From the NCBI RefSeq assembly GCF_014218805.1, contig NZ_JACJUV010000003.1, positions 80,463-144,462 on the forward strand: DNA of 64,000 nt. Direction: 5' to 3'. The notes below the pieces were generated by a model, which did not search any database, was not told the origin of the DNA, and saw only the letters and a program-made list of their open reading frames with translations. A program made the translations under genes and the position numbers. The DNA is from Teredinibacter franksiae. Lineage in GTDB: Bacteria > Pseudomonadota > Gammaproteobacteria > Pseudomonadales > Cellvibrionaceae. Shown here piece by piece: positions 2,496 through 63,822 of this stretch (position 1 is its first letter; each line of letters opens with the position of its first letter).

Positions 2496-3602
2496 TCAGA
2501 GACGCCCGTTAAGGTCGCTAATACAGTGCTTTGGAGGTAAAGGGTTGGTGCAAAAACGTTCCACACCTTTCGCCTCAACCGCTTGCCACAACGACTGAAT
2601 AAGCTGCTCTTTGGAACCCGGTGCTTCCCACCCACTGTTGTTTATCCACTGCGCAATAGCGTCCGCCACATTCGGATAAACCACACGGGGACCCGAAAAA
2701 TGCTTCAGCCAGTCCGCCGTCACTTTGGACTCTAGGGTATCCATGGTCATGGCAAGCTTCAGCTCCTCCATGGCCCTAGCATTGGATAACTGCTCCAACT
2801 GCCCTCGTAAAGGCTTCACCAATATCTTCTTACCTAGGTGAATAGCTTCACTGGACAACTCAAAACCGGCGTTACTGATAACACCTTCACAGGTCGCAAG
2901 ATCATACTTAAAGCCGTCACGTGATAGTGGCCGCAATTCAATATGGCCTCGCGTTTCCGGCTTTTCAAAATCACCATAATAGTAAAATTTGTAGTCCGTG
3001 AAAGGTTTAAGCAATGCCAATACAGCCTCAATTGACTCAAACCCGAGGTATACCAAAATTTTTCCCGCTACCACGGTGTCTTCAGTAACATCCATATCAA
3101 CAATAGGCGGCAGTATTTGTTGATCAAAATGATGCCAGTGCAAACCCAAACTAGCCGCTGCAGGCGCGAACATTTCCATAATTTTTCGCCCCAAATAGTC
3201 ATCGCCTCGACGCGGAACTTTATGGTCAAATGCATATTGATGACCTACACCAATACAAGCTATACCTTTACGACGAGCCGCCCATGCAGTAATAGGTTCA
3301 AAGTCTGTCAGCACAATATCGTAGGGCTTTAGATCTAGCTGGTTAATATCCAGCCACAGCTGTCGAAGGCTGGTCTTTTTTAGCGTTTTCCAAACATTTA
3401 TTTTCCCGGCTTGGTGGGCAAACGTTAATCCACGTTTACATTGCCAACTACCAAATTCTTCCATATCAAAATAGTTTGCCCTGTCTCTACCAGAGAACAA
3501 GTAATCAACTTCAATACCATATTCACATAGGTATTTATTTAAAGCACGCGCACGACTCAAGTGACCGTTGCCCGTCCCCTGAACACCGTAGAGTATTTTC
3601 AT
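2496..3602 (-). CDS. MurG-like glycosyltransferase (MJ1255/VC2487 type)
   Basis: Encodes about 368 residues. It begins MKILYGVQGTGNGHLSRA, the glycine-rich N-terminal loop typical of GT-B fold transferases of the MJ1255/VC2487 family, and carries a second-half donor-site motif (GVISNAGFELSSEAIHLGK followed by KPLRGQLEQLSNA) like that of MurG and UDP-glucuronosyltransferases. The start at 3602 is preceded by AGGAG; an upstream in-frame ATG at 3626 lacks a ribosome site. It lies 29 bp after the PAP2 phosphatase gene on the same strand and probably forms an operon with it, suggesting a role in transfer of sugar to a lipid or envelope glycan. The acceptor cannot be read from sequence. Confidence 0.82.
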   Translation of the reverse strand: MKILYGVQGTGNGHLSRARALNKYLCEYGIEVDYLFSGRDRANYFDMEEFGSWQCKRGLTFAHQAGKINVWKTLKKTSLRQLWLDINQLDLKPYDIVLTDFEPITAWAARRKGIACIGVGHQYAFDHKVPRRGDDYLGRKIMEMFAPAAASLGLHWHHFDQQILPPIVDMDVTEDTVVAGKILVYLGFESIEAVLALLKPFTDYKFYYYGDFEKPETRGHIELRPLSRDGFKYDLATCEGVISNAGFELSSEAIHLGKKILVKPLRGQLEQLSNARAMEELKLAMTMDTLESKVTADWLKHFSGPRVVYPNVADAIAQWINNSGWEAPGSKEQLIQSLWQAVEAKGVERFCTNPLPPKHCISDLNGRL

Positions 3603-46454: not shown

Positions 46455-46806
46455 ATTTACCCCGGTTAAGCGTATTTATTGTTGTTATTAGTCCCAGACA
46501 CAGTGCCACAAGCGCCGCCCAAAAAATAGCAGCTAAAACAAAAACAGCTGACTTATACAAGCCATTCCTCCGGGATATGACACTTATCTCGTTACTTACC
46601 GGTCTATATTCCGTTTCGGTTTGGGCAACACCCAAATTCCTACGACGCATGTCATCTAAATCTACAGGCGGAGCGACACCAGCCAAAGTATAGTCATGGT
46701 GAATACCGCGATAATGGCTTAAAGCGAATTCCCATGGGCGTAACCGCCCGATCAAAAACACGGTATTACCACAATCACTTCTTGGCTTTTCTATTTTCAA
46801 GCACAA
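46447..46806 (-). CDS. Hypothetical small membrane protein
   Basis: Up to 119 residues, start uncertain (TTG 46806; other starts possible inside). One membrane span (SAVFVLAAIFWAALVALCLGLI) near the C-terminus. It overlaps the 3' end of the FG-GAP gene by 32 bp and the start of the DUF3185 gene by 8 bp. Not recognised; kept because the membrane span and tight coupling to DUF3185 support it. Confidence 0.5.
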   Translation of the reverse strand: MCLKIEKPRSDCGNTVFLIGRLRPWEFALSHYRGIHHDYTLAGVAPPVDLDDMRRRNLGVAQTETEYRPVSNEISVISRRNGLYKSAVFVLAAIFWAALVALCLGLITTINTLNRGKYE

Positions 46807-48343
46807 TTAACCGAGATTTTTGTGATTGAAAATCAAAATCACCTTCATCCGGTTTTCGCTCACCAGCAGCAATTTCCACCGAGGCCTTCAACTGGTCAAT
46901 TTTGAATATACCCGCAACTATGTCGAGCTGTTTATTACCATTCAGATCCACTAAGTCAATCGAAACAATGCTTTCCGGTTTGCCTATTATGTTGTGCCGA
47001 GTGAATTGTTGTTTTCCGTCATTCTCGAACCAGATGAGTGTAGCTCGCTTTGAGTCATCCCAATAATTATTCCAACTACCCGCCACTACATCCATATCGC
47101 CATCGCCGTCCATATCTCCAGCTTTTGCCGTTGCCGCACCGTAGAAACGCCCTAGATTATGAAAATCAAATTGCAAATCACCTTTATTCTCTAACCACTG
47201 AACGCCATGGTAGGGCTTAGGTGAAAGATGCAGGTCGTGTGCATCGCCATTGGTAAATAAAATATCTAAATCGCCGTCTTTATCCATATCGGCCATAGAC
47301 AACCCCGTAGACCCAATAATGGGGTCTGGTGCTCGAAACAGGTTGAACTTGGAGAAGTTCCCTTTACCATCGTTAATCATGCCGACAATCATTTCAAATT
47401 CCTGAGAAATCATTGTAACCAAATCGACAATACCATCGCCGTTGATATCCCCAGGCACAATATTTAAGCCACCGCCCATATTCATTAGCACATGAAAAAT
47501 AGGCTTACCCTCGCCAACATTTTCCAGCCAACCGGTTTGTCCCACTTGGTCACTGCCAAAAATGGAAACAGCCAAATCCAGATCGTTGTCTCCGTCAAGG
47601 TCGGCTGCTCGAACATCCAATGCCCTTGGCACATTCTCCAGAAGAATGCGCTTTTCAAATTGACCTTTTTTAGTTTGCTTAAGTAAGATTATTTTTCCTG
47701 CTTTTAGATCAGCAGGGGGGAAAAATCGGCCGAGAGCCGCCACAATGATGTCGAGATCTCCATCGCCATCATAATCAACCACTTCCGCATTCGCAGGAAC
47801 CAGTACGTTCAGCAATACTCGTTCTTTCCACTTGCCCCCTTTTTGTTCCAGTAGTGAAACCCGATTCGTCTCACAATCACTCAATATAAATTCAACCTTA
47901 CCATCGCCGTCTAGATCTGCCGCTTTAACATTGGAAATAAGCGGCATAACAGATTTCGGGGAAAGATCTTTAAAATAAAAAGCGAGCGGGCTATTCGTGT
48001 TTTCAGTGTACGGTAAGCGGGATAATGCCTGTGGGCTACTACCGTAATAGTAAGCGGCAATATCACGAATATGCTCTTCTGAAATAAACTCCCGCCCAAG
48101 ACGTTGCTCGGCAAGTTCTGCCATGCTGTTCACCACCATCGGCCAACTTTTTTTCGGCAGTAAACTGGGGGCAGGCACGTTGTGACAGGCACCGCAGTGG
48201 CTCTGCACAATGGGAATAATTTCATCAACAGATTTTGGCTTTGCGGTTTCTGCCGCAAAAGCAGGAGACAGCAAAAAAAGTAGGGCCAAACCAACTTTTC
48301 GGCGTAAACTGCATGCGGGTTCTACAAACATCAACCTGTTCAT
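46775..48343 (-). CDS. Exported cytochrome c-like / FG-GAP (VCBS) repeat protein
   Basis: 522 residues with a signal peptide (VGLALLFLLSPAFA). A single heme-binding motif CGACH (near residue 50) sits in a small cytochrome-c-like domain (HCGACHNVPAPSLLPKKSW). It is followed by about six or seven FG-GAP/VCBS repeats with calcium-binding DxDGDG loops (ADLDGDGKVEFI, DYDGDGDLDIIV, DLDGDNDLDLAV, DINGDGIVDLV, DMDKDGDLDILF, DMDGDGDMDVVAG) that form a beta-propeller. Such proteins are predicted periplasmic or surface electron-transfer or binding proteins. It lies first in a small operon with two membrane proteins. The partner is unknown. Confidence 0.85.
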   Translation of the reverse strand: MNRLMFVEPACSLRRKVGLALLFLLSPAFAAETAKPKSVDEIIPIVQSHCGACHNVPAPSLLPKKSWPMVVNSMAELAEQRLGREFISEEHIRDIAAYYYGSSPQALSRLPYTENTNSPLAFYFKDLSPKSVMPLISNVKAADLDGDGKVEFILSDCETNRVSLLEQKGGKWKERVLLNVLVPANAEVVDYDGDGDLDIIVAALGRFFPPADLKAGKIILLKQTKKGQFEKRILLENVPRALDVRAADLDGDNDLDLAVSIFGSDQVGQTGWLENVGEGKPIFHVLMNMGGGLNIVPGDINGDGIVDLVTMISQEFEMIVGMINDGKGNFSKFNLFRAPDPIIGSTGLSMADMDKDGDLDILFTNGDAHDLHLSPKPYHGVQWLENKGDLQFDFHNLGRFYGAATAKAGDMDGDGDMDVVAGSWNNYWDDSKRATLIWFENDGKQQFTRHNIIGKPESIVSIDLVDLNGNKQLDIVAGIFKIDQLKASVEIAAGERKPDEGDFDFQSQKSRLIVLENRKAKK

Positions 48344-52298: not shown

Positions 52299-55200
52299 CT
52301 AAAACGAATAGCTAAGAGACAGCCCTAATCCGGCGGCACTTTTTGAGCTTATTTTAAAATACTGATAACCGGCACCTATGGAGAACTGCTCGATCGCCAC
52401 CTGCGCTCCCAACGCAACCCAAGGATCAACGCCATCATCCTCAACGTCGGCTGAAAAGCCTGTTACCCGAACGCTGGAATTCCAGTAAAGCATACCCAAA
52501 TCCGCATACACTGAATAGCGCTGCGCAAAATCCCGTGTAAATCGAGCATTTACCGTCGGCCCTGCTCCCAGGTGTGGAAAGGCCTCACCCAAGGCGCGGG
52601 TTATCACAGATTCTTCTTCATCAAGAATGTCGATTTCGAGATTTGCCTCACCCATATCAACATAACCCACCATTACAGCTACATGCGGGTTATAGGAATA
52701 ACCCAATTTTAAATGGTAGGCCTGCGCCGTATTATCGTACTGAAGGCTATTCACCGTAACGTTATGCTTGGCCATCGTTTGAATAAAACCTGAAGAACTT
52801 TGACTAGATTTTGCTTGAAATAGAGAGGCCTCGACGAATAAATTTTTGCTACTAAAATCTGCGCGCGCAACATCCGGAAAAACCCCTATAAAGAACAAAC
52901 CTGCGATTGCTCCTAAATATTTTTTAGGTAACCTCCTACCAATCCCAATCATCAACAGCATCATTATCAAAGCTATTCCTACAGAACCTCCACCACCGGT
53001 TGCGGTATAAGATTTTGTATTCCGTGTGGCAACGCCACCCGGGTCTACAACGGTGCTATTCGCTTCACCATCGGCGTCGTTGGGGCCACCATCTTCGATG
53101 GTAAGCTGCACACACCAATACCCTTCAACTAGCCCAACCTGCCAGGCGTCGTCACCAGGGGGTGGGCAGAAGCCTTCACTTCCGCCCGCTGAATGTAACT
53201 GGTTTTGGACATTTTCGACAAAGGTTACCCAGCGACCATTAACCAATTTTCGGTAGAGGGCGTTCGCGGGGATCGATTCTAGCTGCGGAATAACAATCGC
53301 CGCACTTTGCCCAGGCGTAGGCAACTCCGAAAGCTCGAAATCAAACAAGCCCGTGAAAGTATGCCGCTCATCCTCTTCTGCCATACTTAAATCCATTAAC
53401 TCATTCATACTTAGGCGTGCACCACCGCTCTGCCCCTGAATAGCAAATTCTCCTAACCGGCAACGAATGCCTGGATCACACTCCATAAGGAAACTATTCG
53501 TTTCACTAGCACGTTCGGGTAGTACGTTTACCAGCGCGATATTATCCAAATAATCCGGTATACCGTCGAAATCCGTATCGGCGGTACCTTCTGCTAGATC
53601 GCTCCTGCCATCACTATCCGTATCCTCATCCGGCGAGAGTACAGGTAAATTTTCCACAACTACAAAATGTAGCACCGCCGTATTATTTTCCCCACCGCTA
53701 TCGGTAACCCGAACCTTCGCACGGTAACGACCTGGCGAGAGCTGCGATGGGTCAAGCGTAAACGTAGTATTGTCTGCATCGCCATCCAGATCGACCAAGC
53801 TGTTATCGGTGTGGGACCAGTCCAATACATGGGTATCGCCGCTGTTAGGGTCATTTATGGTTGCGAGAATAACAACATCACCGCCATTGGGCAGAATTTG
53901 CACGGTCGCAATACTGCTCTGACGGATAGTGAGTGTCACTTTGGGAGAAAGGTTTCGCTCAGCGATTGTTAGTTGAAAACTGTTTTTCTGACCACTATTA
54001 ATGTCATAAATATCGGCTTCAAATCCGTCTGAAAGATCCTCGCTATTAAGGGTTCTATCATCCAATCGCAGCTCCAATATTTCATCATCTTCCGAAATAC
54101 CATCGTCTAAAACAGTAAACCGAATGGCCACACTGGTTTCACCTTCTTCAAAGATTACGCGGCCACTTTGTAGGTTGTAGTCGTTACTATCAGCACTGCT
54201 GCTGTCGCCATCAATAATGTATGGCACCTCCAATGGGTAGAACGGAGACTCGCCATTTAATACCACATAAAGCTCTGCCTCGACCCCCTCCACTGTTACC
54301 TGATTTTTACTAAAAGACACGAGTGGTCGAACATAAATATGCTGCACAACACTGGCACTGTTGCCCATAACATCTTCTGCAACCCAAGTTATAATGTTGT
54401 CACCGGGCGGCAGTGAATACTGGCCGTCCAAAATGTCCGCCGCGCTTAATTGGCAACAACCGTTGCCATCAACATTATCCGTTACCCGTTCAGCCATGGC
54501 GCTTTCTATTTCGGCCTGTGTACTGTCAGCAGGAAGCGACAGTATTTGTGCCACGCTCACAGAAGTAAATAAACCCGTTGCATCCACGATTATATCGACT
54601 GGTGCCGTAACCTCCGGTGGCGTTAAATCGAGATAGTCTAACGGGTCATTTGGATCGGTATTATCAATGCCTTCCTGATGATCGCTTAGGGTGTCACCAT
54701 CGGTATCCACATCGGCTACCACACTGAGGTCAAATGCGGCTAACGCCGAAGAAGTAAACCCGTCACTTACGCTGATAACAATCGCATTGGTTGTACCGAC
54801 ATCGTCCTGTAATGGTGTTCCGCTAAGCACACCGGTTGCCGTATTAAAACTAGCCCAGGCAGGTTGGTTAACAACGGTAAAAGTTAACGCGAACAAATCA
54901 TCGTTACTGTTTACTTGAGCGGTGAACAGGTACGCCTGCCCTTCTAACACGTCCGTTTCAGGTGTTCCGTCTATCACTGGCGCAGAGGCGGGCGAGAACT
55001 GAATACTCACAGTCGCCTGGTTGGAGCTTTCACCGGATTCGTCATCTATGGTGTAGCTGAAGCTGTCTCCCGCCAGTGGATCTATGCCAGCGGCGGGCGT
55101 ATAGGTTAGCGTACCGTCATTATTATTGCTGAGTGTACCTTGAGTAGGTGCATTAACCACAACAATGGCAGCTGCATCCAGAGAACCATCAATATCACTG

Positions 55201-58200
55201 TCGTTGGCGGTGACCTCCAGCATGCTAGATGCATTGGCAACAATATTAAATGCATCGCTATTGGCCAAGGGTGCGTCGTTAACCGGGTCAACGGTAAGTG
55301 TTACCGTTGCGGTATTTGATATAAGCCCCTGACCGTCTTGTACGCTGTAGGTAAAGCTGTCACTGCCCACGAAATCGTCCAGCGGTGTATAAAGCACATT
55401 GCTACCATCAACCACAGCTACACCAGAACTCGCGTTTGTTTCTACGGTCAAGGTCGCGACATTAAGTGTGCCGTCTACGTCGGCATCATTACCTAACACG
55501 TTAATGGCAAGGCTAGCATCTTCTAGCAGGATAACGGCATCGTTTTCAGCAACCGGCGCATCGTTCACACTGTTAACCGTAATCGATACTGTGGCAGACG
55601 CCGAAACAGCACTCAGATCATCCTCAACCGTGTAGGTAAAGCTGTCGCTACCGTTAAAATTAGCCGCCGGCGTATAGGTTATTTCACCGGTTATTGCATT
55701 AATACTGGTAGTGCCATTTACGGTATTGGTTGCGATGACAACACTGGTTGCATCCAATGATCCATCGGGGTCGCTATCATTAATTAACACGTTAACGGCT
55801 GTAGCCGTATCTTCATCTGTAATCGCAGAGTCATTTGCGGCTACTGGCGCGGTATTCGGGTCAATCACACTCACTGTTACGGTTGCCACATTGGAGGTGG
55901 CACCATTAGCATCATCGATAGAGTAGGTGAAAGAATCACTGCCCAGATAATCGGTATTCGGTGTGTAGTCGATCTGGCCAGCGTTAACAACAGCACTACC
56001 ATTGCTGGCCGCGCCGATCACCACTAATGTGCTGGTGTCTGGAGCATCGGCAGTATCGACATCGCTGTCGTTGGCCGCAACATCAATACTTACCAGCGTG
56101 TTGATATCGGTATTGGCACTGTCGGCAGCGGCAACGGGCGCATCGTTTTGCGGGTTTACGGTAATGGAAACCACAGTCACTGCCGATGTGTCACCACTGG
56201 CATCCTGTACGGTATAGGTAAAGCTGTCGCTGCCATTAAAGTTGGCGTTTGGAGTGTAAGTGATAACGCCGGTACCGGTATTAACACTGGTAGAGCCGTT
56301 TGCAGCCTCGCTTACCACGGTTACACTGGCGGCGTTAATCGCATCGTCGCTATCGGAATCGTTGGCCAGTACATCCACCATTACCGCGTTGTCTTCGTTG
56401 GTGGTAGCCGTGTCGGCTGTGGTGCTGGGCGCATCATTCAATGCCGTCACCGTCACACTGAAGATAAAATTACTACCAGCGTTGTTATTAATATTGCCCA
56501 ACGCATCATTCAGTGTGAAGGCAAAGCTGTCGCTGGTGGTTTCACCACCGTCGTGATCGTAAGTAATGTCGTTGTTAACAATATGCTGCTGGGTAAAAGT
56601 ATCGCCATTGCTTAACGCGCTGCCACCACTGCGCAAATTACCATTGGCTGAGGTTGAAACTATTGTGTAAGTGGTATTGCTGGCATTGCTCAGGTTATCG
56701 CTGGCGGTCAGCAAACTGGTATTAATAACGGAATCGCTATCGCCCTCGCTAACACTCAAACCTGTGTTGGTTACTACGATAGGGCTAGTGGCATCCAAAG
56801 TGAAAAGGGTAAGCGTAACAACATTGCTGGCATTTCCCCCGCTGTCTGTAACAGTCAGGGTACAATCGCTGTAATCACCGTCGGCCAAGGCCGTGCTGTT
56901 GTCCGCTTGAGTCAAGGTAATGGTGGTATTACCACCGGTAATCACACCTTCGTCACTACTGCCACAGCTGCCGCCAACGGTAAGTGTGCCCTCCTCAGTG
57001 GACGACAGAGTTACATCTGGTGTGGTGTCATTCGCTGGTGTGATTACAGCGGTGACTTCTGCAACCGTTGGGGCAGCAACATCAACGATAAAGCTGCTAA
57101 GGGTTACCGGTGAATTGCTGTTACCAGAGGCATCTGTAACCGTAAGGGTACAATCACTGTAAGTACCATCGGCAAGCGCAGTGCTGTTATCTGACTGAGT
57201 TAAGGTGATGGTGGTGTTGCCAGAACCAATCGCGCCTTCGCTGGCACTGCCGCAACTTCCGCCCACGGCAAGCGTTCCGGCTTCATCACTAGAAAAAGTA
57301 ACGTCTGGCGTAGTGTCATTCGCTGGCGTGGTTACGGCGGTCACCTCTGCAACCGTCGGGGCAGCTACATCAATGATAAAGCTGCTTAGGGTTACCGGTG
57401 AATTACTGTTACCAGAGGCATCTGTAACCGTAAACGTACAATCACTGTAGGGACCACCGGCAAGCGCGGTGCTGTTATCCGTTTGCGTTAACGTAATGGT
57501 GATATTGCCACTGCTAATCGCGCCCTCACTGGCGCTGCCGCAACTGCCACCTACGCTGAGAGTGCCTGCTTCGTTAGTGGAAATTGTTACATCTGGCGTG
57601 CCGTCGTTGCCGGGTGTTACCACGGCGGTTACTTCAGCCACACTAGGCGCCGACACATCAATGACGAAGCTACCCAGGGTTACAGGCGTGCTGCTGTTAC
57701 CCGAGGCATCGGTAATGGTAAGGGTGCAATCACTATAAGTGGCTTCAGCCAGCGCGCTGCTGTTATCTGCTTGGGTTAAGGTGATAGTGGTATTACCACT
57801 ACTAATAGCGCCTTCACTGGCGCTGCCGCAACTGCCGCCCACGGCAAGCGTTCCTGCTTCATCACTAGAAAAAGTAATGTCTGGCGTAGTGTCATTCGCT
57901 GGTGTGGTTACGGCGGTCACCTCTGCAACCGTGGGGGCAGCAACATCAATGATAAAGCTGCTAAGAGTTACCGGTGAATTACTGTTACCAGAGGCATCTG
58001 TAACCATAAGCGTACAATCACTGTAGGTGCCACCGGCAAGCGCGGTGCTGTTATCTGACTGAGTTAAGGTGATGGTGGTATTACCACTGCTAATCGCGCC
58101 CTCACTGGCGCTACCACAACTTCCACCCACGGTGAGAGTTCCCGCTTCGTTAGTGGAAAGAGTGACGTCCGGCGTACTGTCGTTACTGGGCGTTACTACG

Positions 58201-61200
58201 GCTGTCACTTCGGCAACCGTCGGGGCAGCAACATCAATGGTAAAGCTGCTAAGAGTTACCGGTGAATTGCTGTTACCCGAGGCATCTGTAACCGTAAACG
58301 TACAATCACTGTAGGTGCCATCGGCAAGTGCAGAACTATTGTCCGCTTGCGTTAAGGCGATGGTGGTATTGCCGCTGCCTATCGCACCTTCACTGGCGCT
58401 GCCGCAACTGCCGCCTACGCTGAGAGTGCCTGCTTCGTTAGTGGAAATTGTTACATCTGGCGTGCCGTCGTTGCCGGGCGTTACCACGGCGGTGACTTCA
58501 GCCACACTAGGCGCCGACACATCAATGACGAAGCTACTCAGGGTTACAGGCGTGCTGCTGTTACCCGAGGCATCGGTAATGGTAAGGGTGCAATCACTAT
58601 AAGTGGCTTCGGCCAGCGCGCTGCTGTTATCCGCCTGGGTTAAGGTGATAGTGGTATTACCACTACTAATCGCGCCTTCACTGGCGCTGCCGCAACTGCC
58701 GCCCACGACAAGCGTTCCTGCTTCATCACTAGAAAAAGTAACATCTGGCGTAGTGTCATTCGCTGGCGTGGTTACGGCGGTCACCTCTGCAACCGTGGGG
58801 GCAGCAACATCAATGATAAAGCTGCTAAGAGTTACCGGTGAATTACTGTTACCAGAGGCATCTGTAACCGTAAGCGTACAATCACTGTAGGTGCCACCGG
58901 CAAGCGCGGTGCTGTTATCCGTTTGCGTTAAGGTAATGGTGGTATTACCACTGCTAATCGCGCCCTCACTGGCGCTACCACAACTTCCACCCACGGTGAG
59001 AGTTCCCGCTTCGGTAGTGGAAAGAGTGACGTCCGGCGTACTGTCGTTGCTGGGCGTTACTGCAGCTGTCACTTCGGCAACATTGGGCGCGACCAAATCA
59101 ATTGTGAAGCCACTAAGCGTAAGAGTGTTGCTGTTATTACCAACCGCATCAGTAACGGTAAGCGTACAATCGCTATAGGTGCCAGCGGCCAATGCCGTGC
59201 TGTTATCCGTTTGAGTTAAGGTGATGGTGGTACTGCCAGAGCTTACGGCACCCTCATCACCGCTGCCGCAACTTCCTCCCACACTCAAGGTTCCAGCCTC
59301 ATCGCTATTAAAGGTAACGCTGGGAGTGGCATCGTTAGCTGGTGTGGCCACCGCCGTAATTTCCGAAACGGTTGGCCCCTGCCCATCTACCAGTACTGCA
59401 GCCAAGCTGCCAACACTGTTGAGTACGGTATTGATGTTATTACCAGCCCCATCTTGCAAGGTTCCACCGTTAGCTTGCACTGTGCCGCTGAGACTAAGCC
59501 CGTCGCTGTCCAAGTCTGCCACTTGCACGGTATAGCGGAATAATAATGCGTTGCCTCCCGAGCCGGAAACATAGCTTGCATATTGCGCAGAGGCTCCAAT
59601 CGTTAATTGTAATCGCGGTGTACCTCCGCCTGTGTTCACGGTTATGTTTTCATTAAAGTTAACCGTGAAATCAAGATTATCACCAACCCCATAACTCGCG
59701 TTTGCGGGAACCGCAACCGAGTTTACATCCGGTTCAATATCATCAGTTGTAGTGGTACCCGTACTATTGGTAACCGCACTAGTGGAAGCCATTTGAGTAC
59801 CCGTGCTAACCAGCGTTAAATCAGTGTCTCCATCAACGCTAAGCATCACGGTGTTGCCATGGGTCAACCCCGTGTTGTCGTTGTAATACCCGTTCACGGT
59901 GTAGATTTCGCTACTGCCATCGGCTACTGAAATAGCTAACGTGCTAAAGGTTATGGTGTCGCTAACGGCGCTATATACGCCCGTTACGTTACTGGCGTCA
60001 TTACCGTTTAAGCGCCACGTTATTTTTGCCCGGTCTGCATCACTCGTCGTACCGGTTACGTTCAGTATAATTTGAGATATGCCAAGCGCCAAACCATCCG
60101 CTGTCCCACCGTCACTTATGGTGAAATCAAATAAATTTGCGGCTTCGCCTTCTGTATCGATCGAGTAGCTGAGCCCAATCGGTTCGGTAACGCCTCCGGC
60201 TGCCATAAGGTTGCCGTCGCTGTCTGGTACCAATCCCGTTAGCTGGCTACTATCGGCCACGCTTAGTGCTCCCGATGTACTCCGCAAGTTAAAGTTTTCG
60301 GAAGAACCACCAGAGGCCGTGTAGGTGATTTGCATACCGGTAAAAGTAGCAACACCAGAGGCAGGGGTAAGGGAAACGGTTGTAGGAGAACCATCGACAT
60401 CGCCCGTACCCGAAAGCAATGCAGCACCTGCGCCATTTACTTCAGAAATAACAATGGAGGTGCTGTAGCCTGTGTCTAAAACACTATTACCATCACGCGC
60501 TGACACCACGGGCACCGTGGTAAAGCTGGTTGCAACACCACTACCGACAGTAAGCGGAACAGGCTGAGTGTCATATACCAATTGCGTTGCAACCACATCG
60601 GAAGTGACCGCATTCGCGTCTACCGTGGGAATATCGGAACCAACACCGCTTTGGTCATCTGCGGTAAGCGTAAAACTTTGTTGATCTGCCGTTGCGGTGT
60701 AGATTAAGCCTGCGAATGTCGCCACACCAGTAACAGCGGTCGTGGTTGTGCTTGTGAGTGTTCCAGCACTGGCTTCGGTTAGGGTCACCGTCTCGGTAAA
60801 ATCCACATCGGTATTGCCAAAGGCATCTTGAGCAGTCACTACGGGCTGGGTTGTTAGTGCACTGCCAGAGACAGAACCCGCCGGCTGCGTGGTAATTGCT
60901 AGCGCCGTGGCGGTTACATCCAAGGTGCCACCCACACCATTATTGACGGCAGACGTAGAACCCATTTGCGTACCGCTGCCACCAACCGTGAGATCAGTAT
61001 CGCCATCCACAGTTAAAATAAACGTTGCGTCTTCGGTTACCGCTGTATTGTCGTTGTAATAACCGTTTACCGTATAAATTTCACTGGTGTTATCGGCTAC
61101 AGAAATAGACAAACCTGTAAACGTAATAGTATCCGCTCCACCACTATAACTACCTGATACATCGCTTGCGTCGGGCCCATTTAATCTCCACGTTATACCG

Positions 61201-62849
61201 CCGCGCTGTGCATCTGTACTGGTACCGGTAACGTTTACTACAACTTGCGATACCGATAACGCAAAACCATCACCACTGCCATCCGATAAGGTAAAATCAA
61301 ATAAATTTACGGCTTCACCCTCGCTATCAACGGTTGTCGCAAGACCAACAGGTTCCGATACGCCACCTGCGGAGGTTAGATCGCCGTTACTGTCTGGCAC
61401 ATTGCTTACCGTAATGCCATTGCCCGCGGTGTCGGATGTATCACCAACGGTAACGTTAGTTATAAAGTCGTCTGCAGCCGACAAATTGTAACTAACCGCA
61501 TCTAAAGCACTTAAACCATTAGTGTTTAGCAGCGCTTCCACTGCGGCAATATCGCCCCCTAATAAAGTCACAGTAAATTGAGTAGAGGAATCAATCTCCA
61601 CATCAGAAGATGTGAGTAAAACACGAGTACCGTTCGCCTGCCCTCGAATAGTCAGATCACTAACATCTACATCGGCACCACCGCCATTAGCCTGAAAGTT
61701 TACCCCGGTTACAACCAGTGCTTTCGTACTGTAATTGTAAGTAGCGCTAGTAACTTCAGGTGGGCTACTAGGCGCAACCACATTACTGTAGGTGATATTT
61801 TTAAATGTGAAATTACTAAAATTATTGCCGTTAACACAGCACCCACTTATTGCAAACACAAAGTCAATTTGCGCTACGCCGGTTACCGGGGGGGTACTAT
61901 CACCATCAAAAAAAGCAAATAGATCTGTATCGGAGCTGGTTAAGGTTTTGTTTCCAGCTAGCGTCATTGTTCGCAATGGTGCGCCACCACTATCTCTAAA
62001 AACAACGGTTGACGAAGAATCTAATGTAATGCCAGAGCCAACAAAGGAATAAATTGTGAGCGCACTAACATCGACCGTACCCGCATCGACGTTATCAGTC
62101 TTAATAGTAAGGGTTTTACTTGCACTCGCATTATCGTTCCAATAAAGCTCGCCACCCGCCGCAACGAAATCATTAGATACAACAAGATTTACGTCCGTAA
62201 GTTCTTTATACCCCGAACCACCGGAATCGGTACTACCCAATCCAGCGAACGTTGTCTGTAATACGTGTGCGTATTGTTTAAGCCCTTCGCTTATAAAAGG
62301 GGTTGATGTTTGTATATCGCCCACCCGTAATTCCAGATCCCAGTCCCCACCGAGGGCAACAGCACCCGTAGGATTTGACGAGGCAGCCACATCGGCGCCG
62401 GTTTGCTCAGCCAAAAACGATACAAACTGCCGGCCTTTCTCACCTGCCGCTAGATTGCAACCATAAAAAAGCACATCGGCATCTTTAGATAGCACAGAAC
62501 TTAGCTGGTTTAAAAACCGTTTTTCATCTTTCATTGTTTGCGATGAAATCCACCGATCCCCCAACAAAATTTGTCCATCACTAGCGTGAGAAACAATATG
62601 TAAATTTGCTATGTTTTTGTGACTTTTAAGAACGCGAGTTAACTGCTGAAGTCCATCGCGTTGAGAGCTAATTTCACGAACAATAACGCCGGGCTTTAAG
62701 CTTTGATAAAAAACCTGCTTATCGGCAACGGCCTCATCAATAATAACCAAGTCGGTAGCCATGTACCCTGAAACGGTATTAGCGACTGAAATATTCGAGA
62801 AAAACATTATAAGCATTAACACTAATACTCTATTTATACATCTGATCAT
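52299..62849 (-). CDS. Giant surface protein: DUF4347, Ig/cadherin repeats, GlyGly-CTERM-like segment, C-terminal barrel-like domain
   Basis: About 3516 residues. Order on the minus strand: signal peptide; DUF4347 (62240-62760; HIVSHASDG and LFYGCNLAAG); a beta-sandwich region; two copies of a block starting VPDSxGxL (near 61390 and 60230) with Big-like repeats; nine 96-residue Ig-like units (56788-59379); a CSPG-like repeat; five tandem-95/cadherin-like repeats (NDAPV..., 54990-56430); a putative Ig domain, type-3 thrombospondin-like calcium motifs, HYR and Calx-beta regions. Then GGGGSVGIALIMMLLMIG and RR (52925-52998), a second signal-like segment ending DVARA, and a ~185-residue membrane beta-barrel-like domain with final SLSYSF. 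ATG 62849 is chosen over TTG 62864. Likely an adhesin or matrix protein on the cell surface; see the findings for the odd fusion. Confidence 0.88.
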   Translation of the reverse strand: MIRCINRVLVLMLIMFFSNISVANTVSGYMATDLVIIDEAVADKQVFYQSLKPGVIVREISSQRDGLQQLTRVLKSHKNIANLHIVSHASDGQILLGDRWISSQTMKDEKRFLNQLSSVLSKDADVLFYGCNLAAGEKGRQFVSFLAEQTGADVAASSNPTGAVALGGDWDLELRVGDIQTSTPFISEGLKQYAHVLQTTFAGLGSTDSGGSGYKELTDVNLVVSNDFVAAGGELYWNDNASASKTLTIKTDNVDAGTVDVSALTIYSFVGSGITLDSSSTVVFRDSGGAPLRTMTLAGNKTLTSSDTDLFAFFDGDSTPPVTGVAQIDFVFAISGCCVNGNNFSNFTFKNITYSNVVAPSSPPEVTSATYNYSTKALVVTGVNFQANGGGADVDVSDLTIRGQANGTRVLLTSSDVEIDSSTQFTVTLLGGDIAAVEALLNTNGLSALDAVSYNLSAADDFITNVTVGDTSDTAGNGITVSNVPDSNGDLTSAGGVSEPVGLATTVDSEGEAVNLFDFTLSDGSGDGFALSVSQVVVNVTGTSTDAQRGGITWRLNGPDASDVSGSYSGGADTITFTGLSISVADNTSEIYTVNGYYNDNTAVTEDATFILTVDGDTDLTVGGSGTQMGSTSAVNNGVGGTLDVTATALAITTQPAGSVSGSALTTQPVVTAQDAFGNTDVDFTETVTLTEASAGTLTSTTTTAVTGVATFAGLIYTATADQQSFTLTADDQSGVGSDIPTVDANAVTSDVVATQLVYDTQPVPLTVGSGVATSFTTVPVVSARDGNSVLDTGYSTSIVISEVNGAGAALLSGTGDVDGSPTTVSLTPASGVATFTGMQITYTASGGSSENFNLRSTSGALSVADSSQLTGLVPDSDGNLMAAGGVTEPIGLSYSIDTEGEAANLFDFTISDGGTADGLALGISQIILNVTGTTSDADRAKITWRLNGNDASNVTGVYSAVSDTITFSTLAISVADGSSEIYTVNGYYNDNTGLTHGNTVMLSVDGDTDLTLVSTGTQMASTSAVTNSTGTTTTDDIEPDVNSVAVPANASYGVGDNLDFTVNFNENITVNTGGGTPRLQLTIGASAQYASYVSGSGGNALLFRYTVQVADLDSDGLSLSGTVQANGGTLQDGAGNNINTVLNSVGSLAAVLVDGQGPTVSEITAVATPANDATPSVTFNSDEAGTLSVGGSCGSGDEGAVSSGSTTITLTQTDNSTALAAGTYSDCTLTVTDAVGNNSNTLTLSGFTIDLVAPNVAEVTAAVTPSNDSTPDVTLSTTEAGTLTVGGSCGSASEGAISSGNTTITLTQTDNSTALAGGTYSDCTLTVTDASGNSNSPVTLSSFIIDVAAPTVAEVTAVTTPANDTTPDVTFSSDEAGTLVVGGSCGSASEGAISSGNTTITLTQADNSSALAEATYSDCTLTITDASGNSSTPVTLSSFVIDVSAPSVAEVTAVVTPGNDGTPDVTISTNEAGTLSVGGSCGSASEGAIGSGNTTIALTQADNSSALADGTYSDCTFTVTDASGNSNSPVTLSSFTIDVAAPTVAEVTAVVTPSNDSTPDVTLSTNEAGTLTVGGSCGSASEGAISSGNTTITLTQSDNSTALAGGTYSDCTLMVTDASGNSNSPVTLSSFIIDVAAPTVAEVTAVTTPANDTTPDITFSSDEAGTLAVGGSCGSASEGAISSGNTTITLTQADNSSALAEATYSDCTLTITDASGNSSTPVTLGSFVIDVSAPSVAEVTAVVTPGNDGTPDVTISTNEAGTLSVGGSCGSASEGAISSGNITITLTQTDNSTALAGGPYSDCTFTVTDASGNSNSPVTLSSFIIDVAAPTVAEVTAVTTPANDTTPDVTFSSDEAGTLAVGGSCGSASEGAIGSGNTTITLTQSDNSTALADGTYSDCTLTVTDASGNSNSPVTLSSFIVDVAAPTVAEVTAVITPANDTTPDVTLSSTEEGTLTVGGSCGSSDEGVITGGNTTITLTQADNSTALADGDYSDCTLTVTDSGGNASNVVTLTLFTLDATSPIVVTNTGLSVSEGDSDSVINTSLLTASDNLSNASNTTYTIVSTSANGNLRSGGSALSNGDTFTQQHIVNNDITYDHDGGETTSDSFAFTLNDALGNINNNAGSNFIFSVTVTALNDAPSTTADTATTNEDNAVMVDVLANDSDSDDAINAASVTVVSEAANGSTSVNTGTGVITYTPNANFNGSDSFTYTVQDASGDTSAVTVVSITVNPQNDAPVAAADSANTDINTLVSIDVAANDSDVDTADAPDTSTLVVIGAASNGSAVVNAGQIDYTPNTDYLGSDSFTYSIDDANGATSNVATVTVSVIDPNTAPVAANDSAITDEDTATAVNVLINDSDPDGSLDATSVVIATNTVNGTTSINAITGEITYTPAANFNGSDSFTYTVEDDLSAVSASATVSITVNSVNDAPVAENDAVILLEDASLAINVLGNDADVDGTLNVATLTVETNASSGVAVVDGSNVLYTPLDDFVGSDSFTYSVQDGQGLISNTATVTLTVDPVNDAPLANSDAFNIVANASSMLEVTANDSDIDGSLDAAAIVVVNAPTQGTLSNNNDGTLTYTPAAGIDPLAGDSFSYTIDDESGESSNQATVSIQFSPASAPVIDGTPETDVLEGQAYLFTAQVNSNDDLFALTFTVVNQPAWASFNTATGVLSGTPLQDDVGTTNAIVISVSDGFTSSALAAFDLSVVADVDTDGDTLSDHQEGIDNTDPNDPLDYLDLTPPEVTAPVDIIVDATGLFTSVSVAQILSLPADSTQAEIESAMAERVTDNVDGNGCCQLSAADILDGQYSLPPGDNIITWVAEDVMGNSASVVQHIYVRPLVSFSKNQVTVEGVEAELYVVLNGESPFYPLEVPYIIDGDSSSADSNDYNLQSGRVIFEEGETSVAIRFTVLDDGISEDDEILELRLDDRTLNSEDLSDGFEADIYDINSGQKNSFQLTIAERNLSPKVTLTIRQSSIATVQILPNGGDVVILATINDPNSGDTHVLDWSHTDNSLVDLDGDADNTTFTLDPSQLSPGRYRAKVRVTDSGGENNTAVLHFVVVENLPVLSPDEDTDSDGRSDLAEGTADTDFDGIPDYLDNIALVNVLPERASETNSFLMECDPGIRCRLGEFAIQGQSGGARLSMNELMDLSMAEEDERHTFTGLFDFELSELPTPGQSAAIVIPQLESIPANALYRKLVNGRWVTFVENVQNQLHSAGGSEGFCPPPGDDAWQVGLVEGYWCVQLTIEDGGPNDADGEANSTVVDPGGVATRNTKSYTATGGGGSVGIALIMMLLMIGIGRRLPKKYLGAIAGLFFIGVFPDVARADFSSKNLFVEASLFQAKSSQSSSGFIQTMAKHNVTVNSLQYDNTAQAYHLKLGYSYNPHVAVMVGYVDMGEANLEIDILDEEESVITRALGEAFPHLGAGPTVNARFTRDFAQRYSVYADLGMLYWNSSVRVTGFSADVEDDGVDPWVALGAQVAIEQFSIGAGYQYFKISSKSAAGLGLSLSYSF
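54990..56430 (-). repeat. Five tandem-95/cadherin-like repeats inside the giant gene
   Basis: Each begins N(D/T)AP, continues with a calcium-style NDSD motif (VLANDSDSDD, VAANDSDVDT, VLINDSDPDG) and ends in SDSFTYxxxD. Sequence divergence between units is higher than in the nine-unit array, so they are older. Confidence 0.75.
56788..59379 (-). repeat. Nine tandem 288-bp (96-residue) Ig-like units inside the giant gene
   Basis: Units begin APTVAEVTAV(V/T)TP and contain one conserved pair of cysteines (GGSCGSASEG and YSDCTLTVTD). Period 288 bp. Units 2-3-4 and 5-6-7 match each other position by position better than neighbours do, so a three-unit block (864 bp) was duplicated. Confidence 0.9.
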
Positions 62850-63207
62850 GAATAAGCCCGTCAATAATTAATTAGATAGCATCATGCACAGGTCCCTTCC
62901 ATGACCATGCTTTTACCCAACAAGTATAGGCAAGCTTTCCAATAGATAATGCCTAATTACGATTCTTCTAAAAACACACTTTTTTGGCGCACACGGGCTT
63001 AACCATGAGAGCTTACTGAGAAGACAAATGGCGGATATCATTGACTTGAAAGGAATAGAAAGAAACGTGCTTTCCACTCTTACGGAAGGGCGATATGGCA
63101 ACTTGAAAATAAACGTACAATGCTACCCGCCGCAAGAGCAGGTAGCTAGCACTAAACGTCGTGGAAAAATGTACACAAATAAAGTCACACGAAGGGCTAG
63201 GGAACCT
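62850..63207. other. Intergenic region upstream of the giant gene
   Basis: Holds the giant gene promoter (minus strand). The frame 63028-63261 has GAGAAG before its ATG but no recognisable features and overlaps the collar gene, so it is not called. GCTACC (63122) / GGTAGC (63142) is a loose inverted repeat. CTAGGGAACCT lies near 63198, touching the collar gene stop. Confidence 0.4.
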
Positions 63208-63822
63208 TTAACTGCGAGAAGGGTAAAGACCTTGAGTTGCAATACAGTAATTCATGACTAACGCCGGCTGCATGAGAGAAAAAGCTGAGCTTCCGCCCGT
63301 TGATTGAATATCCACGTTACCGCCGGCACCCGAACCGCCAGCAACACCGCCTAATTTAACGGTTCCAGCACCCGCATCAGCGCGATACAAAAGCACACCA
63401 TCACTCCTGCCACCGTCATTTTTTGCCAAATAGGCACCTTCAGTTGGTGCATCTTGAGTGGCCGCATCAGTTGAAACATTCACTTCAGCGTCAGTATCGC
63501 CACTGCCGGGAGTAAACACAGCAACATGGCTATGGTTCGCTAGTTCTGACGCTGATAAGGTATGTAATTCGCTACCAGCCTGTTGGCCTACTCGCCAGTC
63601 GTATAAACTACCTGGGTGCTGCCCTGCACTCATGCCCGCTTTACCCCTTAAATCCGGCAGCCCAAAGGTGCTTCTGCCATCACCACCATATGCTGTCCCT
63701 AGCAATGAAAATAATGCCGTATTCGAACTAATCGCTACCATAGCACCCGAACAAAAAGCCCAGTTCCTAGGTGCGAAATTGAAACCAAACGCACATATTT
63801 GCCCTATAAAAGGATTATCCAT
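63208..63822 (-). CDS. Phage tail-collar domain protein (MdpB-like)
   Basis: 204 residues. N-terminal MDNPFIGQICAFGFNFAPRN and WAFCSGAMVAISSNTALFSL are the tail-collar domain typical of the microcystin-dependent proteins MdpA/B/C; GTAYGGDGRSTFGLPDLRGK is the most diagnostic part. The C-terminus (LMQPALVMNYCIATQGLYP) is also standard. Despite the phage-like name these are widespread chromosomal genes, usually in tandem with similar ones and with large surface proteins. The remaining gene upstream is cut by the window edge. Function uncertain. Confidence 0.88.
   Translation of the reverse strand: MDNPFIGQICAFGFNFAPRNWAFCSGAMVAISSNTALFSLLGTAYGGDGRSTFGLPDLRGKAGMSAGQHPGSLYDWRVGQQAGSELHTLSASELANHSHVAVFTPGSGDTDAEVNVSTDAATQDAPTEGAYLAKNDGGRSDGVLLYRADAGAGTVKLGGVAGGSGAGGNVDIQSTGGSSAFSLMQPALVMNYCIATQGLYPSRS

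Follow-up and report, generated by a model that had tools for sequence, protein, structure and literature searches.

The window, a stretch of 64,000 nucleotides from Teredinibacter franksiae, carries on its minus strand an open reading frame of 3521 residues (52299-62864) that is read as a single frame in the ORF translation. TTG at 62864 is the first possible start codon, and ATG at 62849 is the likelier start because the signal peptide begins there. The features of this gene and its upstream neighbor are as follows:

63208..63822, minus: upstream gene with a Phage Tail Collar domain
62781..62849, minus: N-terminal Sec signal peptide (residues 6-28), from hydropathy; cleavage site read by eye
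62259..62750, minus: DUF4347 domain (residues 39-202), 181.3 bits, cut-off 24.6
56845..59232, minus: tandem repeat within the adhesin, 288-bp (96-residue) unit, 8.3 copies
55101..56438, minus: Tandem-95, Big_9, Ig- and cadherin-like repeats (residues about 2143-2588)
53028..53360, minus: choice-of-anchor U domain NF041766 (residues 3169-3279), 39.4 bits, cut-off 32
52986..52997, minus: GGGG motif (3290-3293), putative rhombosortase site
52938..52985, minus: first hydrophobic segment, SVGIALIMMLLMIGIG (3294-3309), from hydropathy; a helix in the structural model, at low confidence
52920..52937, minus: basic loop RRLPKK (3310-3315), predicted to be cytoplasmic from the putative topology
52875..52919, minus: second hydrophobic segment, YLGAIAGLFFIGVFP (3316-3330), putative internal signal peptide; a helix in the structural model, at low confidence
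52857..52874, minus: DVARA followed by D, putative signal peptidase I site between A3335 and D3336
52302..52859, minus: OmpA-type 8-strand outer-membrane barrel (3336-3521), ending SYSF

The 288-bp repeat, with 76% matches, is a likely site of copy-number change. A Tail Collar homologue also lies upstream of the adhesin gene in the regions of six of eight relatives (L265, L267-L270 and L272), as three genes in tandem in L269 and L272. Elsewhere in the window (46775-48343, minus strand), an FG-GAP repeat protein has a haem-like CGACH motif near its N-terminus.

The linker and the C-terminal barrel

An earlier note on this DNA had described a GGGG motif, a hydrophobic run and RR about 230 residues from the protein end, a second hydrophobic segment ending DVARA, and a barrel-like domain with terminal SYSF; all of these are present on the minus strand. 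The sorting signal directly follows the choice-of-anchor U domain, and GGGG begins 231 residues ahead of the last residue (3521). Its elements come in the order of GlyGly-CTERM (TIGR03501), i.e., glycine motif, hydrophobic segment and basic cluster, with a score of 12.5 bits for the window's own signal, below the cut-off of 15.5. The signal is not at the extreme C-terminus, as 228 residues follow the last glycine. Signal peptidase I substrates have a hydrophobic core, then small-x-Ala, then the mature domain, and the sequence here has the same pattern, with VARA after the second hydrophobic core and D at the start of the barrel. Residues 3280-3335 contain no Cys, the residue that is invariant in the MYXO-CTERM motif (PMC11980579).

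An AlphaFold2 model of the last 317 residues, made with 40 aligned sequences, has a mean pLDDT of 81.7. Block means are 83-98 in the barrel, where we counted eight strands by eye, and about 43-75 in the linker, where helices are placed at residues about 3296-3311 and 3314-3325; with pLDDT this low, hydropathy is better evidence for the linker helices than the model is. The barrel scores above the gathering cut-off of Pfam OmpA_membrane (PF01389; 25.2 bits, cut-off 21) and, in a scan of the last 317 residues, above that of OMP_b-brl (34.7 bits, cut-off 28.7). The first three Foldseek matches are OmpA structures or models, the second being 9fzc (E 3.2e-9, TM-score 0.75 on target). The terminal Phe is conserved. 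Type V autotransporters have a 12-strand (or trimeric) translocator barrel, and we rejected this assignment for a barrel that is OmpA-type with eight strands.

Spread and conservation of the fused frame

The earlier note had proposed a scan of Cellvibrionaceae for separate versus fused genes, and we searched 144 genomes of the family, the window's own among them, in six frames with the last 317 residues. Matches were found in 52, and many span the whole query as one open frame with no stop, at 30-49% identity and in several genera. Of the seven other genomes of the same genus, five (G131, G133, G135, G136 and G137) carry the fused gene and two (G132 and G134) have no match in this search; the stop codon that the note had envisaged in close relatives was looked for, and all five matching genomes are fused. 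Farther afield, profile A1 has matches at E up to 1e-10 in the order (78 of 390 genomes) and in the class (66 of 369), not all of these matches being fused. Among the best 80 of 331 GTDB records, fused forms occur in those named Teredinibacter, Cellvibrio, Hahella, Oceanobacter, Rheinheimera, Shewanella, Photobacterium, Vibrio, Pseudoalteromonas, Alteromonas and Psychromonas. The distribution of the arrangement extends far outside Cellvibrionaceae. Because the queries for relatives were the window's own C-terminus and profile A1, built from fused proteins, split versions are under-counted.

The linker is under purifying selection: over the 62 residues before the barrel, dN/dS is 0.03-0.65 in the ten usable pairs of relatives (11 pairs taken, L066/L067 left out because of a wrong window). 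Alignment A2 holds 40 fused C-termini picked by whole-length match and not by motif. At its positions 73-155 the only columns conserved to at least 90% are G88, G89 and A131, both glycines being invariant; these correspond to G3292 and G3293, the conserved glycines within GGGG, and to A3335 of the window protein. The NCBI GlyGly-CTERM model, at E up to 10, finds a match in 19 of these 40 C-termini. Both results are free of the circularity of the script described below.

We also scripted the module as a glycine motif, a hydrophobic segment, a basic stretch (net charge +1 or more), a second hydrophobic segment and small-x-Ala. Among 116 distinct barrel ORFs from all loci, a set that includes close relatives and in which the barrel match starts at residue 180 or later, the module was found in 105. 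Shuffled versions of the same stretches gave it 23 times in 2320, and 594 windows taken elsewhere in these proteins never did. Of the 105 modules, 93 have GG as the motif and 64 a strict A-x-A, and the loop carries a net charge of +2 to +9. Small-x-Ala by itself is a weak marker, occurring in control windows at 67-73% in the loose form and 17-26% as strict A-x-A. The 11 ORFs without a scripted module comprise five with a module-like linker by eye in which a threshold was missed or the spacer is long (L052, L224, L161, L172 and L189), four in which the module is absent (L227, L228, L230 and L231) and two separate barrel genes (L057 and L058).

Across 102 script-picked linkers nothing but the glycine pair is near-invariant, and in 55 of the 105 second-segment pieces, also script-picked, the same holds for the alanine. 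The GlyGly-CTERM model matches 75 of these 102 linkers but none of the 55 second-segment pieces. Of 56 C-termini from barrel-less relatives it matches 13; eight of the 56, judged by eye, have a different domain at their end and were unable to match. With the MYXO-CTERM model, 50 of the 102 picked linkers match. Conservation and matches in these linkers and pieces are partly circular, because the script asks for a glycine motif and small-x-Ala.

Among the same 56 barrel-less C-termini, five match JDVT-CTERM. By eye, some relatives of this adhesin, such as L127, L128, L131 and L200, carry Cys-containing, JDVT-CTERM-like tails and no plain glycine signal.

Split genes, rhombosortase and the proposed processing

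A two-gene version occurs in eleven loci, in which the adhesin ends just after its hydrophobic tail and the barrel gene follows immediately. By eye, the tails are glycine-type in nine loci and GHS in two Marinimicrobium. In ten of the eleven (L058 by eye), an ATG for the barrel gene lies between 7 nt before and 14 nt after the end of the adhesin stop codon; the split barrel gene of L216 has only TTG. Start and stop codons overlap as ATGA in three loci, two in Marinimicrobium and one in Colwellia. A tree of the barrels, built by a quick method with no bootstrap from 96 fused and 11 separate rows (107 in all), shows at least seven changes of state, two of them forced by starred branches. From their sequences, fused and split genes look like interchangeable ways to the same two proteins, and it is mainly for this reason that we infer that the fused chain is cut.

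The separate barrel gene of L057 lies tail to tail with genes for a class GN sortase and a marine proteobacterial sortase target, and the neighborhood of L058 is similar by eye. The L057 barrel scores 32.1 bits against PdsO (cut-off 152.2). It may serve the sortase system, which is a caveat for counting L057 and L058 as split versions.

A search for rhombosortase genes had been suggested as a check, and one was found in the window's genome (G000:C1:2640535-2641002; 141.6 bits, cut-off 84), on a different contig from the fused gene. The genome also encodes a GspD secretin (573.2 bits, cut-off 351.35). Within the family, by hand count, rhombosortase is over the cut-off in 30 of 32 genomes with the fused gene versus 77 of 112 others (Fisher p 0.0023, kinship ignored). 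In a second set of fused-gene genomes, which repeats the two misses of the family set, it is over the cut-off in 25 of the 30 searched, the exceptions being G126, G030, G457, G152 and G321. The base rate in the class is 77/229 in a sample that includes some fused-gene genomes. Downstream sequence of at least 900 nt is present for 89 module ORFs, and in three of them (G354, G486 and G821) a rhombosortase ORF over the cut-off follows directly on the same strand; a fourth adjacent one, by a model of our own, is found at L158, where the ORF is cut by a contig end and falls outside the 89. In Haft 2011 (PMC3237569), the rhombosortase gene is reported within one gene of the target in 16 of 21 single-target genomes.

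A further candidate, a frame of 4155 residues ending in rhombosortase at L246 (G099), was rejected as a masked stretch read as N. In G152, a rhomboid gene that scores below the rhombosortase cut-off (G152:C1:253208-253624, 60.4 bits) adjoins the fused gene and is convergent with it.

Taken together, the open frame, the conserved motifs, purifying selection, the split genes and rhombosortase support the reading first raised in the earlier note, that the gene encodes a polyprotein. We give a probability of about 0.75 to its being a two-product polyprotein that would be cut by rhombosortase and by signal peptidase I. The sequences fit these enzymes, the glycine pair rhombosortase and the conserved alanine signal peptidase I. 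The N-terminal signal peptide would direct the chain into Sec, the first hydrophobic segment would stop transfer, the basic loop remaining cytoplasmic, and the second would work as a signal peptide within the chain, resuming export and bringing the barrel to the periplasm as well. Because two hydrophobic segments flank the basic loop, adhesin and barrel would both be periplasmic. Rhombosortase would then cut at the glycine pair and so pass the giant adhesin on to type II secretion; it would be displayed on the surface, probably bearing a lipid-like anchor like the one proposed for VesB. The cut after DVARA would be made by signal peptidase I and would free the OmpA-type barrel for insertion into the outer membrane; a cut before the barrel is needed because a barrel about ten residues from an inner-membrane helix could hardly reach that membrane. 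The hairpin would be a discarded linker.

In Vibrio cholerae, rhombosortase is reported to expose the second glycine of VesB, which later bears a glycerophosphoethanolamine-type group, and surface display of VesB depends on the T2SS (PMC6219818). The earlier note had cleavage at GlyGly releasing the giant adhesin. Comparison among relatives supports the polyprotein reading, with a putative cut at this site, and the VesB precedent makes an anchored adhesin on the surface more likely than simple release.

The main rival is that two products arise without proteolysis, the barrel being made mainly from an internal translation start in the first segment. The window has ATG codons in this segment, and translation from MIGIGRRLPKK onward would make a normal signal peptide; in the split relatives, start and stop codons overlap or lie close together, which couples the two genes. 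An in-frame ATG is present in 66 of the 105 modules, and some start codon with a Shine-Dalgarno-like stretch in 21, but 39 modules have no in-frame ATG and only 14 combine ATG with such a stretch. Moreover, stops would be expected in the linker if the long frame were dispensable. We consider this reading unlikely.

It is quite unlikely that the first cut is made by another protease, such as GlpG or an unknown sorting enzyme, in place of rhombosortase. GlpG is reported to cut VesB in the loop before the helix (PMC11389362), the five fused-gene genomes listed above have no rhombosortase over the cut-off, and MYXO-CTERM models match the linkers too; the co-occurrence and adjacency of rhombosortase with fused genes argue against it. 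Still less probable is that signal peptidase I is the sole cutter and that the hairpin keeps the adhesin in the inner membrane. Conservation of the alanine before the barrel would agree with this, but the glycine pair, the GlyGly-CTERM matches and the adjacent rhombosortase genes would be left unexplained. Finally, although relatives with separate adjacent genes exist, so that the stop codon separating the halves can appear or disappear, the recent gene fusion that the note had allowed for, or a read-through or sequencing error at the adhesin stop codon, is refuted for practical purposes by the one open frame kept in relatives at 30-49% identity, among them the five matching genomes of the same genus, by the occurrence of the fused frame in many genera and several families, and by the dN/dS of the linker.

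Under the preferred two-cut polyprotein reading, the adhesin probably has the barrel as its outer-membrane partner or anchor, a role suggested by the repeated pairing of the two and by TraA/TraB.

Relation to known systems

The closest precedent is MXAN_5598 of Myxococcus xanthus, in which one ORF holds a large adhesin region, an internal MYXO-CTERM, an outer-membrane barrel and OmpA domains (PMC11980579). Its authors suggest a fusion of two genes, propose processing of the N-terminal part and liken the protein to TraA plus TraB; the same paper cites two papers on sorting tags that work inside a protein. MXAN_5598 differs from the window protein in its Cys-based tag and myxosortase, in place of a glycine motif and rhombosortase, and in the cited parts of that paper it is given as one atypical protein with no second cut proposed (PMC11980579). 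TraA and TraB of Myxococcus are analogous in pairing a C-terminally tagged surface protein with an OmpA-domain partner, and their genes overlap by four bases, like those of three split relatives here; unlike the window's gene, they are two genes with MYXO-CTERM and serve outer-membrane exchange (PMC3325183). With GlyGly-CTERM/rhombosortase systems the window protein shares the glycine motif, hydrophobic helix and basic cluster, but the signals described in the cited parts of these papers end the protein, whereas the window's precedes a second export signal and a barrel (PMC3237569, PMC6219818).

Members of NCBIfam NF033207, midcut-by-XrtH, in G529 also have a hydrophobic segment in the middle of the protein, followed by RR and another hydrophobic segment. 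Unlike the window's gene, these are ORFs of about 185-254 residues that go with an exosortase by name and in which no barrel was seen; a search of 15 genomes with NF033207 (cut-off 45) gave none over the cut-off and no match at all in the window's genome. Judging by the title of a 2017 paper by Abdul Halim, ArtA reportedly processes an internal tripartite signal in Haloferax; as here, the sorting signal is away from the C-terminus, but the enzyme is an archaeosortase and the organism an archaeon. The cytochrome bc1 polyprotein FbcH is a bacterial polyprotein with an internal signal peptide; it differs in being an inner-membrane respiratory protein with no sorting enzyme.

In full-text searches of open-licence literature we recognised no description of an internal GlyGly-CTERM. 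MXAN_5598 and midcut-by-XrtH are known precedents that lower the novelty of the arrangement. In these searches we also found no earlier account of a rhombosortase version, of how widely it occurs, of its pair of conserved cut-like motifs, or of fused and overlapping-gene versions side by side. To our knowledge, few bacterial polyproteins are cut by two different membrane proteases, and a candidate of this kind looks common here. The working rule that GlyGly-CTERM lies at the very C-terminus is broken, and because the signal can be internal, surveys restricted to C-termini would miss candidate rhombosortase substrates. An OmpA-type barrel becomes a candidate partner for large surface proteins, and the existence of natural fused and split versions makes the idea directly testable.

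What lies ahead of the module varies. Besides choice-of-anchor U, the passengers include DUF11, fibronectin type III, MBG and chitobiase-C-terminal-like domains, and one has a weak legume-lectin match below the cut-off; the passenger is exchangeable. In L066, with which L067 aligns, a peptidoglycan-binding OmpA domain follows the barrel. More speculatively, and at somewhat under even odds, the membrane hairpin may be a general self-excising device that delivers an adhesin and its own partner in equal numbers from one chain, with exchangeable passengers and enzymes and with a barrel that docks or anchors the adhesin; the sorting enzymes would then be rhombosortase here and myxosortase and exosortase elsewhere.

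One minor observation concerns the paralogues L022 and L046, both in G021. Their dS is about 1.8 before the linker and about 0.04-0.05 in linker and barrel, as though the module were copied in one piece.
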